This document shows positions 4,306 to 8,305 of a DNA stretch of 12,317 nt, piece after piece. The DNA comes from Gemmatimonadota bacterium (GTDB lineage Bacteria > 4572-55 > J002), in the NCBI GenBank assembly GCA_003697105.1, contig RFFQ01000071.1, positions 1 through 12,317 of the forward strand, written 5' to 3'. How positions within the stretch are numbered: the first letter of the stretch is position 1; each line of letters starts with the position of its first letter. The notes under the pieces are model-generated. The model ran no database searches, was not told the origin of the DNA, and saw only the letters and a program-made list of their open reading frames with translations. The translations under genes were made by a program, and so were the position numbers.

Positions 4306-4355
4306 TACCCACCAAAGAGGATTCTAACTCGCTCATCAAGACATTATCCATTTTG

Positions 4356-4379
4356 AAAACCGTTGACATCGGTTTTTTT
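4356..4379 (+). terminator. Intrinsic terminator after anmK
   Basis: A 7-bp stem, AAAACCG (4356-4362) with CGGTTTT (4370-4376), encloses a 7-base loop TTGACAT and continues into a run of seven T (4373-4379). The T-run is partly inside the stem. It lies 51 bases after the anmK stop and is the only credible end signal for operon A. The stem has three G-C pairs, so it may be leaky. Confidence 0.55.
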
Positions 4380-4391
4380 ATATGTTATTCT
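4363..4391 (+). promoter_or_regulatory. Strong promoter for operon B, nested in the terminator
   Basis: TTGACA (4363-4368), a 17-base spacer and TATTCT (4386-4391) give a 6/6 -35 box and a 4/6 -10 box at ideal spacing. The bases TATTCTTG (4386-4393) also fit the Bacteroidota-type TAnnTTTG element at all but one fixed position. Transcription would start near 4398, about 38 bases before the ATG at 4436. The -35 box coincides with the loop of the terminator hairpin. GGAG (4424-4427) lies 8 bases before the ATG. Confidence 0.6.
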
Positions 4392-4435
4392 TGCCCAACT
4401 TCTAATAGGTTCCTGAGGGTTTTGGAGTCATTATC

Positions 4436-5803
4436 ATGTCGCAAGAATTATTACGGCGAATCGTGTTGGTCTTTTCGCCTGCATTTTTTGGACTGATTAT
4501 CCTTCAGCTGATTCATATTGTGGATGTTATCCGGCGTGATAAAAAAACGGTTCCAAAGAAAACAGTATGGTTGGTGTGGATGGCAATTCCGGTGTTGGGA
4601 GGCTTTGTTGCCGGAATTTATTATTGGATAGTCGTGCGGCGATTCGGACCACCGGCAGGTAAATCCACGCCCGCTAAATCCGGGAAAGTAACCGCGAAAA
4701 CGCCAAAAAAAGCCAAAAAGAAATCAGCCACAACCCCGAAAAACAAGAAAAAGTCAACCGCTGACGCGCCATCAAAACCGGTGATTTCAAAACCCGTCAA
4801 ACCCAAATCCGTGACATCACCCGCCGCATCACCGGCAGTTTCGGCGAAATCTGCGACTCGCTCGACCCCAACAGCGAACATCGCTTCTAAACCGCTAAAG
4901 CCAGCGGCGTCACCTGTGGCGCAACCACAACCGGTTTCACCACCCACTGCCCCAGCGACACCGCCAAACCAGAGCCAGACCGGTTTGAAAGGGTACGGAG
5001 ATGACCGGCGGAATCGCATTATTGAAAACAATGCCGCCCAACCCCCCATTGACGGGCGTCCCCGCGTCCATCAGGCGGATAAAGTGAATGTCAAACCGGA
5101 TGGCTTGCTCATCACAGACGGCTTGAACCGGCATCATGTGAAATGGAATGAAATCCAGATTATCATTGGTGCCCAATCTCCCGTTGGGATACGGGATAAG
5201 CTAATGATGGATATGTTTGTCGCCGGATTGGTTGCACCTTACCGTATTTTTGATGATGTAATTTTGTATCAGGAATTTTTGGACGATGTCTCGTTCAATA
5301 TTGAAGATAATTTTCGGGCATTTACCCAATGGGTATTAAAACATGCCACGGCGGCGGTTGTCGAACCGGAAACCGTTGATTTTGCGAACATCCCGACGAA
5401 ACATTTTGCTCACCAATTTCGTAAGTTTCAGGAATTTGACGAGTTTGTCTGGAAAATCCGAAATCAGGTGTTTTCTCAAACAGAGGTCAGCTCAGCAGAA
5501 CCCCAACCGGCGGTTTCCGCGCCGGAACCCCCTCCTACACCCGCACCTCCGCCCGCAGAAGAGAAATTTGGGGTCATCATCCGGGAAATTACACCGGGCT
5601 ATGAAAAACACATTCTACAAGTCATCATGCACCTTTACAAATGTGATGTGGATCGCGCCAAAACCTTCCTCAAACTGCCGTCCATTGTAGGGCAAAATCT
5701 AAGCCGGGAACAAGCCCTCAAACTGACCAACGAGTTGCAAAAGCGAGGGGCCGTTGTGCAAGGGGTCCGGATGGAACAGCTCAAAAAGTTACGGAAAACC
5801 TAA
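4436..5803 (+). CDS. Membrane protein with PLDc_N-like anchor, basic linker and L7/L12-like C-terminal domain
   Basis: I do not recognise this 455-residue protein as a named family. Two hydrophobic segments (about 10-30 and 43-66), joined by a charged turn VDVIRRDKK (29-37), resemble the PLDc_N two-helix anchor of cardiolipin synthases, but no phospholipase D HKD motif follows. Residues 71-183 are a low-complexity Lys/Ala/Pro/Ser/Thr linker resembling histone H1 tails. A middle region (about 184-347) looks globular, with alternating strands around VKPDGLLITDGLNRHHVKW (219-237) that might be PH-like; this is a guess. A Pro/Ala/Glu linker (350-377) leads to residues 378-447, which follow the pattern of the ribosomal L7/L12 C-terminal domain (FGVII, AKTFLKLP, LSREQALKLTNELQKRGA). 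It heads operon B and its stop overlaps the next start by one base (TAATG). Anchor and C-terminal similarity are by eye. Confidence 0.85.
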   Translation: MSQELLRRIVLVFSPAFFGLIILQLIHIVDVIRRDKKTVPKKTVWLVWMAIPVLGGFVAGIYYWIVVRRFGPPAGKSTPAKSGKVTAKTPKKAKKKSATTPKNKKKSTADAPSKPVISKPVKPKSVTSPAASPAVSAKSATRSTPTANIASKPLKPAASPVAQPQPVSPPTAPATPPNQSQTGLKGYGDDRRNRIIENNAAQPPIDGRPRVHQADKVNVKPDGLLITDGLNRHHVKWNEIQIIIGAQSPVGIRDKLMMDMFVAGLVAPYRIFDDVILYQEFLDDVSFNIEDNFRAFTQWVLKHATAAVVEPETVDFANIPTKHFAHQFRKFQEFDEFVWKIRNQVFSQTEVSSAEPQPAVSAPEPPPTPAPPPAEEKFGVIIREITPGYEKHILQVIMHLYKCDVDRAKTFLKLPSIVGQNLSREQALKLTNELQKRGAVVQGVRMEQLKKLRKT

Positions 5804-6327
5804 TGCAACGAGGATGCGTCATCATCTTGATACTACTACTCTATGTCACCGCCGGTTCTGGGATTGCTCAAACGGTGGAAGCAACATCCGCGGACTCAAT
5901 TTACGGCGATCAGCCGCTCGGTTCGCCACGTGGCGCCATGTGGCGGTCGTTAGTCCTGCCGGGTTGGGGGCAATGGTATAACGGCCAACCTCGCAAAGCC
6001 TTGATTATTGGTGGAATTCAGGTCGGCACAATTGCCAGCTCACTCCTTGCCGATTATTACGCTTACAAAAATTTGGATCGCAGTAAAAAGGAGTCACTCT
6101 CGACTACTCAACAGGCGATTTTCCGGGAGCGGTATGAAGACTACAAGAATTGGAAACGTTTCTTCCGCTGGTGGTTTTTTTTGATGACCCTCTACAGCAT
6201 GGGGGATGCTTACGTCGAAGCTCATTTGAAGGGCTTTGACGACCAAGTCAAGGAAAATGCGGATTGGCGTATCCAAATGGACCCGGACCTCCGTCACCCT
6301 CAACTTCAACTTCAATTTTCGTTCTGA
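5803..6327 (+). CDS. DUF5683-type exported/membrane protein
   Basis: The 174-residue product begins with a signal peptide (hydrophobic 5-20, likely cleavage after GIAQ or nearby). It carries the two hallmarks of the DUF5683 family: LVLPGWGQWYNGQPRKALIIGG (50-71, cited by its ends LVLPGWGQ and KALIIGG) and SMGDAYVEAHLKGFDD (about 141-156). Two or three hydrophobic stretches (about 65-85 and 120-145) suggest membrane association. The family is common in Bacteroidota and relatives and has no established function. The start ATG shares its A with the previous stop codon (TAATG), so translation is probably coupled. The stop is 6 bases before the permease start, whose ribosome-binding site (GAGG) overlaps this stop codon. 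Confidence 0.85.
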   Translation: MQRGCVIILILLLYVTAGSGIAQTVEATSADSIYGDQPLGSPRGAMWRSLVLPGWGQWYNGQPRKALIIGGIQVGTIASSLLADYYAYKNLDRSKKESLSTTQQAIFRERYEDYKNWKRFFRWWFFLMTLYSMGDAYVEAHLKGFDDQVKENADWRIQMDPDLRHPQLQLQFSF

Positions 6328-6333
6328 GGCATT

Positions 6334-7284
6334 ATGAAAACCCATCGGGGTACGTTGTTATTGGCATTATTGTTTATTTTTCCGGCGTCGTTGATTGTGT
6401 TTGTTTTCCGGCTCGTGCCAGTCATATACTCTTTCATTGTTAGTTTTTATGATTGGGGTGTGGCTGGTATGAAAGGGTTCATCGGGTTGGATAATTATGT
6501 GTTCTTGATGAAAGACCCGGAATTCTGGCAGTCGTTGGTCAACACATTTTATTATGTACTTTACACCGTACCGGTAACATTGGTGCTATCCTTGATAATC
6601 GCAATTTTACTGAATCAAAAAATAAAAGGTTTAGGCATCTATCGTGTGATCTACTTTTTACCGGTGGTGACCTCTCTCGTCGCGGTTTCGATGGTGTGGA
6701 AGTGGATTTTTAATCCAGAAATTGGGCTTGCCAACTATATGCTCTCTTTGATTGGCATTCCGCGCCAACTCTGGTTGCAAGAAGCAAAAGGGGTTTTCCA
6801 ATTGATGCTGAGTCCCGTGGGGATCGATCTTCCCCGTTGGGCAGGGGGTCCCAGTTTGGCGTTGATGAGTATCATTATCATGAGCGTTTGGAAAGGTGTC
6901 GGTTACAATGTGGTGATCTTCCTTGCAGGTTTGCAAAACATTGGGGAACAGTATTATGAAGCCGCAAAACTCGATGGTGCGAACCGGTTTCAGCAATTTT
7001 GGCATGTGACCTTGCCCTTGCTCTCCCCCACGACGTTTTTCGTGCTAGTGATGACGACGATTACCTCTTTTCAAGTCTTCGTCCAAATTTACATGATGAC
7101 CGGACCCCCCGTGGGTGGACCCGCCGGCACAACTAAAGTATTGGTCTATTACCTCTACGAAAAAGGCTTTGAGACCTTTGAAAGCGGTTATGCCTCAGCG
7201 ATCGCGTTTGTCCTGTTTATGATTATTTTAACTTTGACGATCATCCAACGCCAAGTGATTGAACCGCGCGTTCATTACGATTAA
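6334..7284 (+). CDS. Sugar-type ABC transporter permease (MalF/UgpA family)
   Basis: This 316-residue inner-membrane protein is one of the two permease subunits of a carbohydrate-type ABC importer. Six membrane segments are apparent, beginning at about residues 8, 75, 105, 175, 235 and 287. The EAA loop that docks on the ATPase is intact: EAAKLDGANRFQQFWHVTLP (209-228), with E209, A210, A211, G215, L227 and P228 at the expected positions. The C-terminus (EPRVHYD) also resembles MalF-like permeases. Residues about 146-172, between the third and fourth segments, look longer than in typical members. The partner permease, binding protein and ATPase are all missing from this window; the gene sits between a DUF5683-type gene and E1 alpha, with a 6-base gap before and a 7-base gap after. 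The family is certain; the substrate cannot be told. Confidence 0.93.
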   Translation: MKTHRGTLLLALLFIFPASLIVFVFRLVPVIYSFIVSFYDWGVAGMKGFIGLDNYVFLMKDPEFWQSLVNTFYYVLYTVPVTLVLSLIIAILLNQKIKGLGIYRVIYFLPVVTSLVAVSMVWKWIFNPEIGLANYMLSLIGIPRQLWLQEAKGVFQLMLSPVGIDLPRWAGGPSLALMSIIIMSVWKGVGYNVVIFLAGLQNIGEQYYEAAKLDGANRFQQFWHVTLPLLSPTTFFVLVMTTITSFQVFVQIYMMTGPPVGGPAGTTKVLVYYLYEKGFETFESGYASAIAFVLFMIILTLTIIQRQVIEPRVHYD

Positions 7285-7291
7285 GAACCTT

Positions 7292-8305
7292 ATGAAAACA
7301 AAAACATCGATCCTTGAACCGTTATCCGCAGTTGATAACCTCAATCTTTACACCCAGATGGTGCGGATGCGCCGCATTGAAGAACGCGCCGAACAGCTTT
7401 TTCGGGAAAACCGGACGGTTGGGCGCGTGTACACCGGTCGCGGGCAAGAAGCGATCTCGGTAGGAGCGGCGTATGCACTAAACCCCGATGATGGCTTAGC
7501 ACCACTCTACCGGGAGATGGGCGCCCATCTGGTGCGAGGGGTCACCCCCCGCGAAATTTTCTGCCAATATATGGGACGAAAAAATTCCGCTACCCAAGGT
7601 CGGGATTCCGGGTTGCATATTGGCGATCCGCATCGCCATCTGGTGAGCATGATCAGCAGTTTAACCGCCTCTTTACCGGTGGCAGTCGGAATGGGACTCT
7701 CCTACCAGATTCGCGGGCAACAGCGCGTCGCCATGACCTTTTTAGGCGATGGTGCCACCAGTACCGGTAGTGCCCATGAGGGGCTCAATTTTGCCGCTAC
7801 CCGTAAAATTCCGGTGGTGTTTGTCTGCTCGAATAATCAATGGTCGCTTTCGACTCCCTCCCACCAGCAACATGGTTTGGCACGACTGGCAGGTCGCGGT
7901 ACGGGTTACGGCATGGCATCTGTTCAAGTGGATGGTAATGATGTCCGGGCGGTCTATTACGCTGCCGCCGAAGCCGTCGTCCGTGCGCGCCACGGGAAAG
8001 GTCCAACCTTTATCGAAGCCGTGACCATGCGCATGGCCGGACATTCGGTGACCGATCCGGCGGTCTATATTCCCAAGACAATGACCCAACAATGGCAGGA
8101 AAAAGACCCCCTCCACTGCTTTCAAACCCAACTGTGCGCGGAGGGATTGCTGACCGCTGAAAAAATCGAACAAATTGAACTCGAGATACGCGAAGAGATT
8201 GATGACGCCGTTCGCTTCGCCGAAGAAAGCCCGCTGATGCCAACTGACGAACTGACGACAGGTGTTTTTGCCGAATTTCACGGGAGTACTAATGCGAAAA
8301 ATTAG
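7292..8305 (+). CDS. 2-oxoacid dehydrogenase E1 component, alpha subunit (pyruvate dehydrogenase-like)
   Basis: With the beta subunit this forms a thiamine-diphosphate enzyme that decarboxylates a 2-oxoacid and passes the acyl group to a lipoyl E2. The 337 residues include the E1 alpha opening YTQMVRMRRIEERA (20-33), the TGRGQEA segment (48-54) and the diphosphate/Mg motif GDGATSTGSAHEGLNFA (152-168) closing with NN (181-182). GHSVTDPAVY (250-259) replaces the GHSxxDPxxYR common in pyruvate dehydrogenases, with Ile in place of the Arg. Substrate may be pyruvate, a branched-chain oxoacid or, in acetoin dehydrogenase, acetoin. I chose the ATG at 7292; a TTG at 7259 in the same frame lies inside the permease gene and would add an unlikely 11-residue lead. 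The end overlaps the beta start by 14 bases. Confidence 0.92.
   Translation: MKTKTSILEPLSAVDNLNLYTQMVRMRRIEERAEQLFRENRTVGRVYTGRGQEAISVGAAYALNPDDGLAPLYREMGAHLVRGVTPREIFCQYMGRKNSATQGRDSGLHIGDPHRHLVSMISSLTASLPVAVGMGLSYQIRGQQRVAMTFLGDGATSTGSAHEGLNFAATRKIPVVFVCSNNQWSLSTPSHQQHGLARLAGRGTGYGMASVQVDGNDVRAVYYAAAEAVVRARHGKGPTFIEAVTMRMAGHSVTDPAVYIPKTMTQQWQEKDPLHCFQTQLCAEGLLTAEKIEQIELEIREEIDDAVRFAEESPLMPTDELTTGVFAEFHGSTNAKN

Follow-up and report, generated by a model that had tools for sequence, protein, structure and literature searches.

A predicted membrane-anchored protein with a C-terminal L12-type domain from a Gemmatimonadota bacterium, and its distant relatives in KSB3

The gene and the domain order of its product

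The window analyzed here is a stretch of 12,317 nucleotides from a Gemmatimonadota bacterium (contig RFFQ01000071.1). ORF calling delimits a gene on its plus strand (4436..5803) for a 455-aa membrane protein with a C-terminal L12-type domain. This is a genuine ORF, and a GGAG at 4424-4427 lies eight bases 5' of its ATG. The upstream neighbor is an AnmK gene with a terminator-like hairpin (4355-4377, plus strand), overlapped by a promoter-like site (4363-4391, plus strand; 10/12), both recognized as consensus matches only; TTGACA, the first hexamer of the promoter-like site, sits in the loop of the hairpin. On the 3' side the stop codon overlaps the start (TAATG) of a gene for a 174-aa DUF5683 protein (5803..6327, plus strand; PF18935, E=2.1e-14), and neither an EF-G gene nor hflKC adjoins the gene within the window. 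Translation, hydropathy, composition and domain homology bore out both the ORF and the order of segments given in a preliminary description of this DNA, namely a membrane anchor, a basic linker, a middle domain and an L7/L12-type C-terminal domain.

The N-terminal anchor (residues 1-70; 4436..4645, plus strand), assigned by hydropathy and related to that of a paralogue described below, has two membrane-length hydrophobic segments (residues 11-29 and 43-61) with a basic loop between them. The PLDc_N-like character first ascribed to it was rejected, since PF13396 gave no match to the window in a whole-genome scan, even at E=10; in the same scan a frame of 497 aa at another place in the genome reached 37.3 bits with this family. 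The anchor is followed by a Lys/Pro/Ala/Ser/Thr linker, presumed disordered from its composition (residues 71-183; 4646..4984, plus strand), whose 113 residues include 22 Pro, 21 Lys or Arg and a single acidic residue. The term "H1-like" earlier applied to this linker fits its basic composition and holds as a composition descriptor only. A middle domain of an unnamed family (residues about 207-352; 5054..5491, plus strand) and a second linker, Pro-rich and acidic in composition (residues about 353-376; 5492..5563, plus strand; 348-376 in the composition count), lead to the C-terminal L7/L12-CTD-type domain, here called the head (residues 377-447; 5564..5776, plus strand).

The head was assigned by profile comparison and predicted fold. 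The only Pfam match to the isolated domain was PF00542 (Ribosomal_L12; E=0.0097, 16.7 bits), under the curated cut-off of 25.9 bits, which its direct relative in a long protein (L011) exceeded with 27.5 bits. Comparison with ten rplL domains in hhalign gave E=9.6e-8 for the pair formed by the window and paralogue heads and E=4.8e-9 for an eight-member set. A two-row profile of the same pair, run against 386 genomes, put long proteins other than ribosomal ones at the top (5.9e-14 to about 2e-7) and after them recovered ordinary rplL from dozens of genomes. The eight-member profile returned mostly L7/L12 chains from a PDB sequence search; the pentatricopeptide matches that also appeared there summed many sub-significant repeats and were set aside as compositional. 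An AlphaFold2 model built from seven sequences (pLDDT 81.5) has the beta-alpha-alpha-beta-alpha-beta order, ranked L7/L12 at the top in Foldseek and aligned with 1CTF over 67 residues at 1.2 A (VIA-align, Z 11.3). ClpS also resembled the model, at a Z of 8-9.8 that is below bL12, and the ClpS family gave no match to the isolated head in hmmscan (E<=10, subject to HMMER filters). These profile and model comparisons establish true homology between the head and the bL12 C-terminal domain and uphold the initial assignment of residues 378-447 to the L7/L12 type. The N-terminal domain of Ribosomal_L12, which serves dimerization and bL10 binding, had no Pfam match; the N-terminus is instead the hydrophobic anchor.

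Relatives in the same genome and in KSB3

The genome of the window also encodes a paralogue of 238 aa (L002:1399-2115, minus strand), which combines an anchor, a Pro linker and a head and has no middle domain. The two heads are 34% identical (E=4.6e-11) and the two anchors 36% identical (E=6e-8). An ordinary rplL lies at L006:1321-1704, beside L1- and L10-like genes, so that neither the window protein nor its paralogue is the ribosomal protein. A third PF00542 match in the genome (L008) contains a stop and overlies a gene resembling a proton-pump subunit, and was taken as chance.

Searches for relatives of the whole protein returned none in 60 genomes beyond weak rplL-type matches, and none in a database of genome contigs or in plasmids. 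The sole genome of the same class in our set, G001, held no relative, including by the two-row head profile; PF00542 finds no rplL in it either, probably because of an assembly gap. The relatives found outside the window genome are distant, at about 20-25% identity. The closest non-ribosomal heads found with the two-row profile (E=5.9e-14, 8.3e-13 and 4.6e-10) all come from KSB3 (Moduliflexota), a phylum represented in the set by four genomes, G099 (bacterium JZ-2.bins.100), G365, G237 (KSB3 bacterium DOLJORAL78_50_49) and G386 (bacterium UASB270, which we take to be Vecturithrix granuli, a KSB3 member). All four encode a protein of 547-568 aa in which a linker joins a hydrophobic N-terminal region to two heads. 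These proteins resemble the window protein in their hydrophobic N-terminus, long linker and head sequence, but they carry two heads rather than one and no middle domain, the G099 protein has four hydrophobic segments by hydropathy against two in the window protein, and their genes lie beside an extra EF-G gene.

Searches with the middle domain led to other KSB3 proteins. It matched a protein of G237 (E=1.4e-10) and gave two further matches in G386, and no relative was found in Pfam or PDB sequence searches. Three KSB3 membrane proteins join this domain to zinc ribbons (L095:703-1971, 422 aa; L102:751-1995, 414 aa; and L108:40-1914). In L095 and L102 the middle domain is followed by the zinc ribbons and, at the C-terminus, by a hydrophobic hairpin, so that they share the middle domain with the window protein and differ from it in their zinc ribbons, in the position of the hairpin and in having no head; in L108 a rhomboid-like and repeat region, recognized by inspection, comes before the middle domain and a zinc-ribbon-like segment. 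Weaker matches (L096-L099 and L103-L107) were dropped because of high E-values, stops or the presence of unrelated genes. A single-sequence AlphaFold2 run on the middle domain gave no reliable model (pLDDT 34.8); at a guess, it could be PH-like, its first half appearing strand-rich by eye, with helices after.

The order of segments is therefore conserved in part. Anchor, Pro linker and head recur together in the paralogue, and the KSB3 proteins repeat membrane segments, linker and heads (two of them), but the complete four-part order including the middle domain was seen in the window only, and the middle domain also occurs in headless KSB3 proteins. Judged by these sequence matches, it is a separate module outside any fixed architecture.

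In all four KSB3 genomes a conserved hydrolase gene is followed by a full-length extra EF-G gene and then by the gene for the two-headed membrane protein (EF-G and two-headed pairs at L050:4579-8272, L051:4635-8334, L052:3579-7369 and L053:4243-8088; within L050, EF-G at 4579-6606 and the two-headed protein at 6629-8272). The two genes are 22-84 bases apart in the three genomes with a clear gap. The genes 3' of the pair vary. In G099 and G365 they are hflK and a gene resembling hflC; in G237 and G386 hflKC does not adjoin the pair. Each KSB3 genome has three EF-Gs. The extra ones score 882-985 bits with TIGR00484 (cut-off 659; three scanned), keep their GTPase motifs intact and form their own clade in an 18-sequence tree (support 100/100), apart from the str-operon copies. 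Their acidic G' helix region is, by inspection, as in other EF-Gs. The C-terminal end of the L050 EF-G and its orthologues is ~14 residues shorter, and loop I of domain IV reads RDHYG or REHYG versus RGQYG in most other EF-Gs compared.

The window genome itself encodes two EF-Gs of the main kind (G000:C120:11158-13182 and G000:C166:17440-19464) and one EF-G2-like protein, and its str-operon EF-G is the more diverged of the two main-kind copies. The extra copy (C120) was considered as an orthologue of the KSB3 extra EF-G and rejected, as it falls outside the KSB3 clade in the tree. Neither of the head-bearing genes of this genome is near an EF-G gene. Duplicated EF-Gs have been studied in depth (PMC3150367); a limited search of the open-access literature found none tied to a membrane L12-type protein, which is weak evidence that the KSB3 pair has gone undescribed.

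The contact face of the head and comparison with known proteins

The conserved site by which bL12 binds IF2, EF-Tu, EF-G and RF3 is positively charged and lies on its helices 4 and 5 (PMC6753160). K65, K70, R73, K81, E82 and K84, all on these two factor-binding helices, are identical in the 14 rplL proteins compared (14/14). At these positions, aligned with hhalign, the window head has E, Q, M, D, R and K, so that K84 alone is kept, and the counterparts of the basic K65, K70, R73, K81 and K84 are E390, Q395, M398, D406 and K409. Few of the basic contact residues survive in any of the eight anchored heads, that is, in the window head and in seven others whose positions were counted without gaps from the AK (or equivalent) pair and may be off by one in the distant heads. 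Loss of this conserved basic face would make docking of translation GTPases in the manner of bL12 unlikely and would leave room for another mode; on residue identities, bL12-style capture of factors by the window head thus appears unlikely. The recruitment of translation factors hinted at in the preliminary description is accordingly weakened for the window protein, and it is kept alive in KSB3 by the pairing with EF-G.

The window protein is like bL12 in the fold and core sequence of its head and in the flexible linker that carries it, an arrangement shared with the ribosomal stalk. It differs in having a membrane anchor in place of the bL10-binding, dimerizing N-terminal domain and in lacking K65, K70, R73 and K81, and a true rplL is present elsewhere in the genome. 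Its head resembles the ClpS adaptor at the level of the superfold, with a weaker match than to bL12 and none to the family profile. Single-TM proteins whose cytoplasmic part bears a ClpS-ribosomal L7/L12 domain are described in passages of PMC12419801; they share with the window protein a membrane anchor and an L12-ClpS domain and differ by fusion to an HTH domain and by coupling to a Skillet-2 Lipocone gene, and the passages concerned make no mention of a middle domain like the one described here. ClpS-ribosomal L7/L12 domains inserted in other systems have also been reported (PMC7159879). Membrane-anchored L12/ClpS-type domains are therefore already published, and the window protein is a variant of such proteins.

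Further L12-type proteins were encountered in the genomes searched. A soluble-looking 278-aa protein of G099 (L048:1246-2082) has a counterpart in G365; its L12-type domain scores above the Pfam cut-off, and it is not close to the window protein. A protein of G230 (L014:1018-1860) joins zinc ribbons, two L12-type domains and a hydrophobic segment, and one of G360 (L039:487-2319) combines zinc ribbons, an L12-type domain, a hydrophobic segment, TPR and a peptidase domain.

Proposed role and alternatives

Our preferred reading, held with moderate confidence, makes the window protein a cytoplasmic adaptor that is tethered to the membrane and binds proteins through its L12-type head. The two-helix hairpin would fix the protein in the inner membrane, the long, basic, flexible linker would give the two globular domains room to move in the cytoplasm close to the membrane, and the terminal domain would be the protein-binding head, in which the stalk fold is retained while helices one and two present an altered contact face. 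The published single-TM proteins with a cytoplasmic domain of the L12-ClpS type offer a parallel. Given this altered face, the head should bind a non-canonical partner, or the canonical translation GTPases in a different way. It is reasonable to propose that the protein tethers a cytoplasmic partner at the membrane, its orientation, tethering and partner binding all being putative.

The hydrophobic anchor and the L12-type domain are both present, and the side of the membrane is read from charge only. By itself the hairpin could put the C-terminus on either side, because the loop between its hydrophobic segments is also basic. The charge of the linker and the zinc ribbons in homologues of the middle domain suggest a cytoplasmic C-terminal part; the C-terminal side of the paralogue is not strongly basic, which counts against this argument. 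Since the loop is strongly basic, the positive-inside rule could place both ends of the hairpin outside the inner membrane, where the C-terminal part would have an envelope role, for instance with the DUF5683 membrane protein encoded by the translationally adjacent gene. We consider this unlikely, as the linker after the hairpin is still more basic than the loop, and the zinc ribbons as well as the four hydrophobic segments of a KSB3 relative suit a cytoplasmic C-terminus. It is more doubtful still that the linker is the working part, a basic tail binding nucleic acid or acidic lipid with the globular domains as accessories: its composition would suit such binding, but the head is kept in the paralogue and the KSB3 relatives on linkers of differing composition and length, that of the paralogue being Pro-rich rather than Lys-rich.

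Two further alternatives concern the partner of the head. As a membrane-bound catcher of factors, the head would recruit EF-G or another translation GTPase, aiding translation or recycling at the membrane. The pairing, in all four KSB3 genomes, of the two-headed gene with an EF-G of a distinct clade and with intact GTPase motifs speaks for such a role, as does mitochondrial EF-G1, whose G' subdomain is contacted by helices of the uL12m CTD (PMC8203779), and KSB3 gives this reading a firmer footing than the window does. The loss of most of the basic contact residues in every anchored head argues against it; with the G' helix region of the KSB3 extra EF-G as acidic as usual, nothing suggests that the interface has changed on both sides, and in the window genome neither the placement of the head genes nor the phylogeny of the extra EF-G repeats the KSB3 arrangement. 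For the window protein we regard this role as rather unlikely. The fuller version, in which the KSB3 two-headed protein captures its dedicated EF-G for ribosome translocation or recycling at the membrane and the window protein and its paralogue are a single-headed version with a rewired face, is given a low probability. We deem it very unlikely that the head acts as a ClpS-like membrane adaptor passing substrates or degrons to an AAA+ protease such as FtsH. The resemblance of the head to ClpS in superfold would allow it, and the genes that come next in G099 and G365 are hflK and an hflC-like one, regulators of FtsH; however, both fold searches place bL12 structures higher than ClpS, Pfam gives Ribosomal_L12 and no ClpS, and the hflKC adjacency is absent from G237, G386 and the window.

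If the adaptor reading is right, the ribosomal stalk fold would have left the ribosome for the membrane in at least two deep lineages of bacteria, one of them the barely sampled lineage of the window organism, with its catching surface rewritten. Through its middle domain, an unnamed module, the window protein is linked to zinc-ribbon membrane proteins of KSB3. The most interesting lead is the KSB3 pair of extra EF-G and two-headed protein, which offers a testable case for membrane-linked control of translation.
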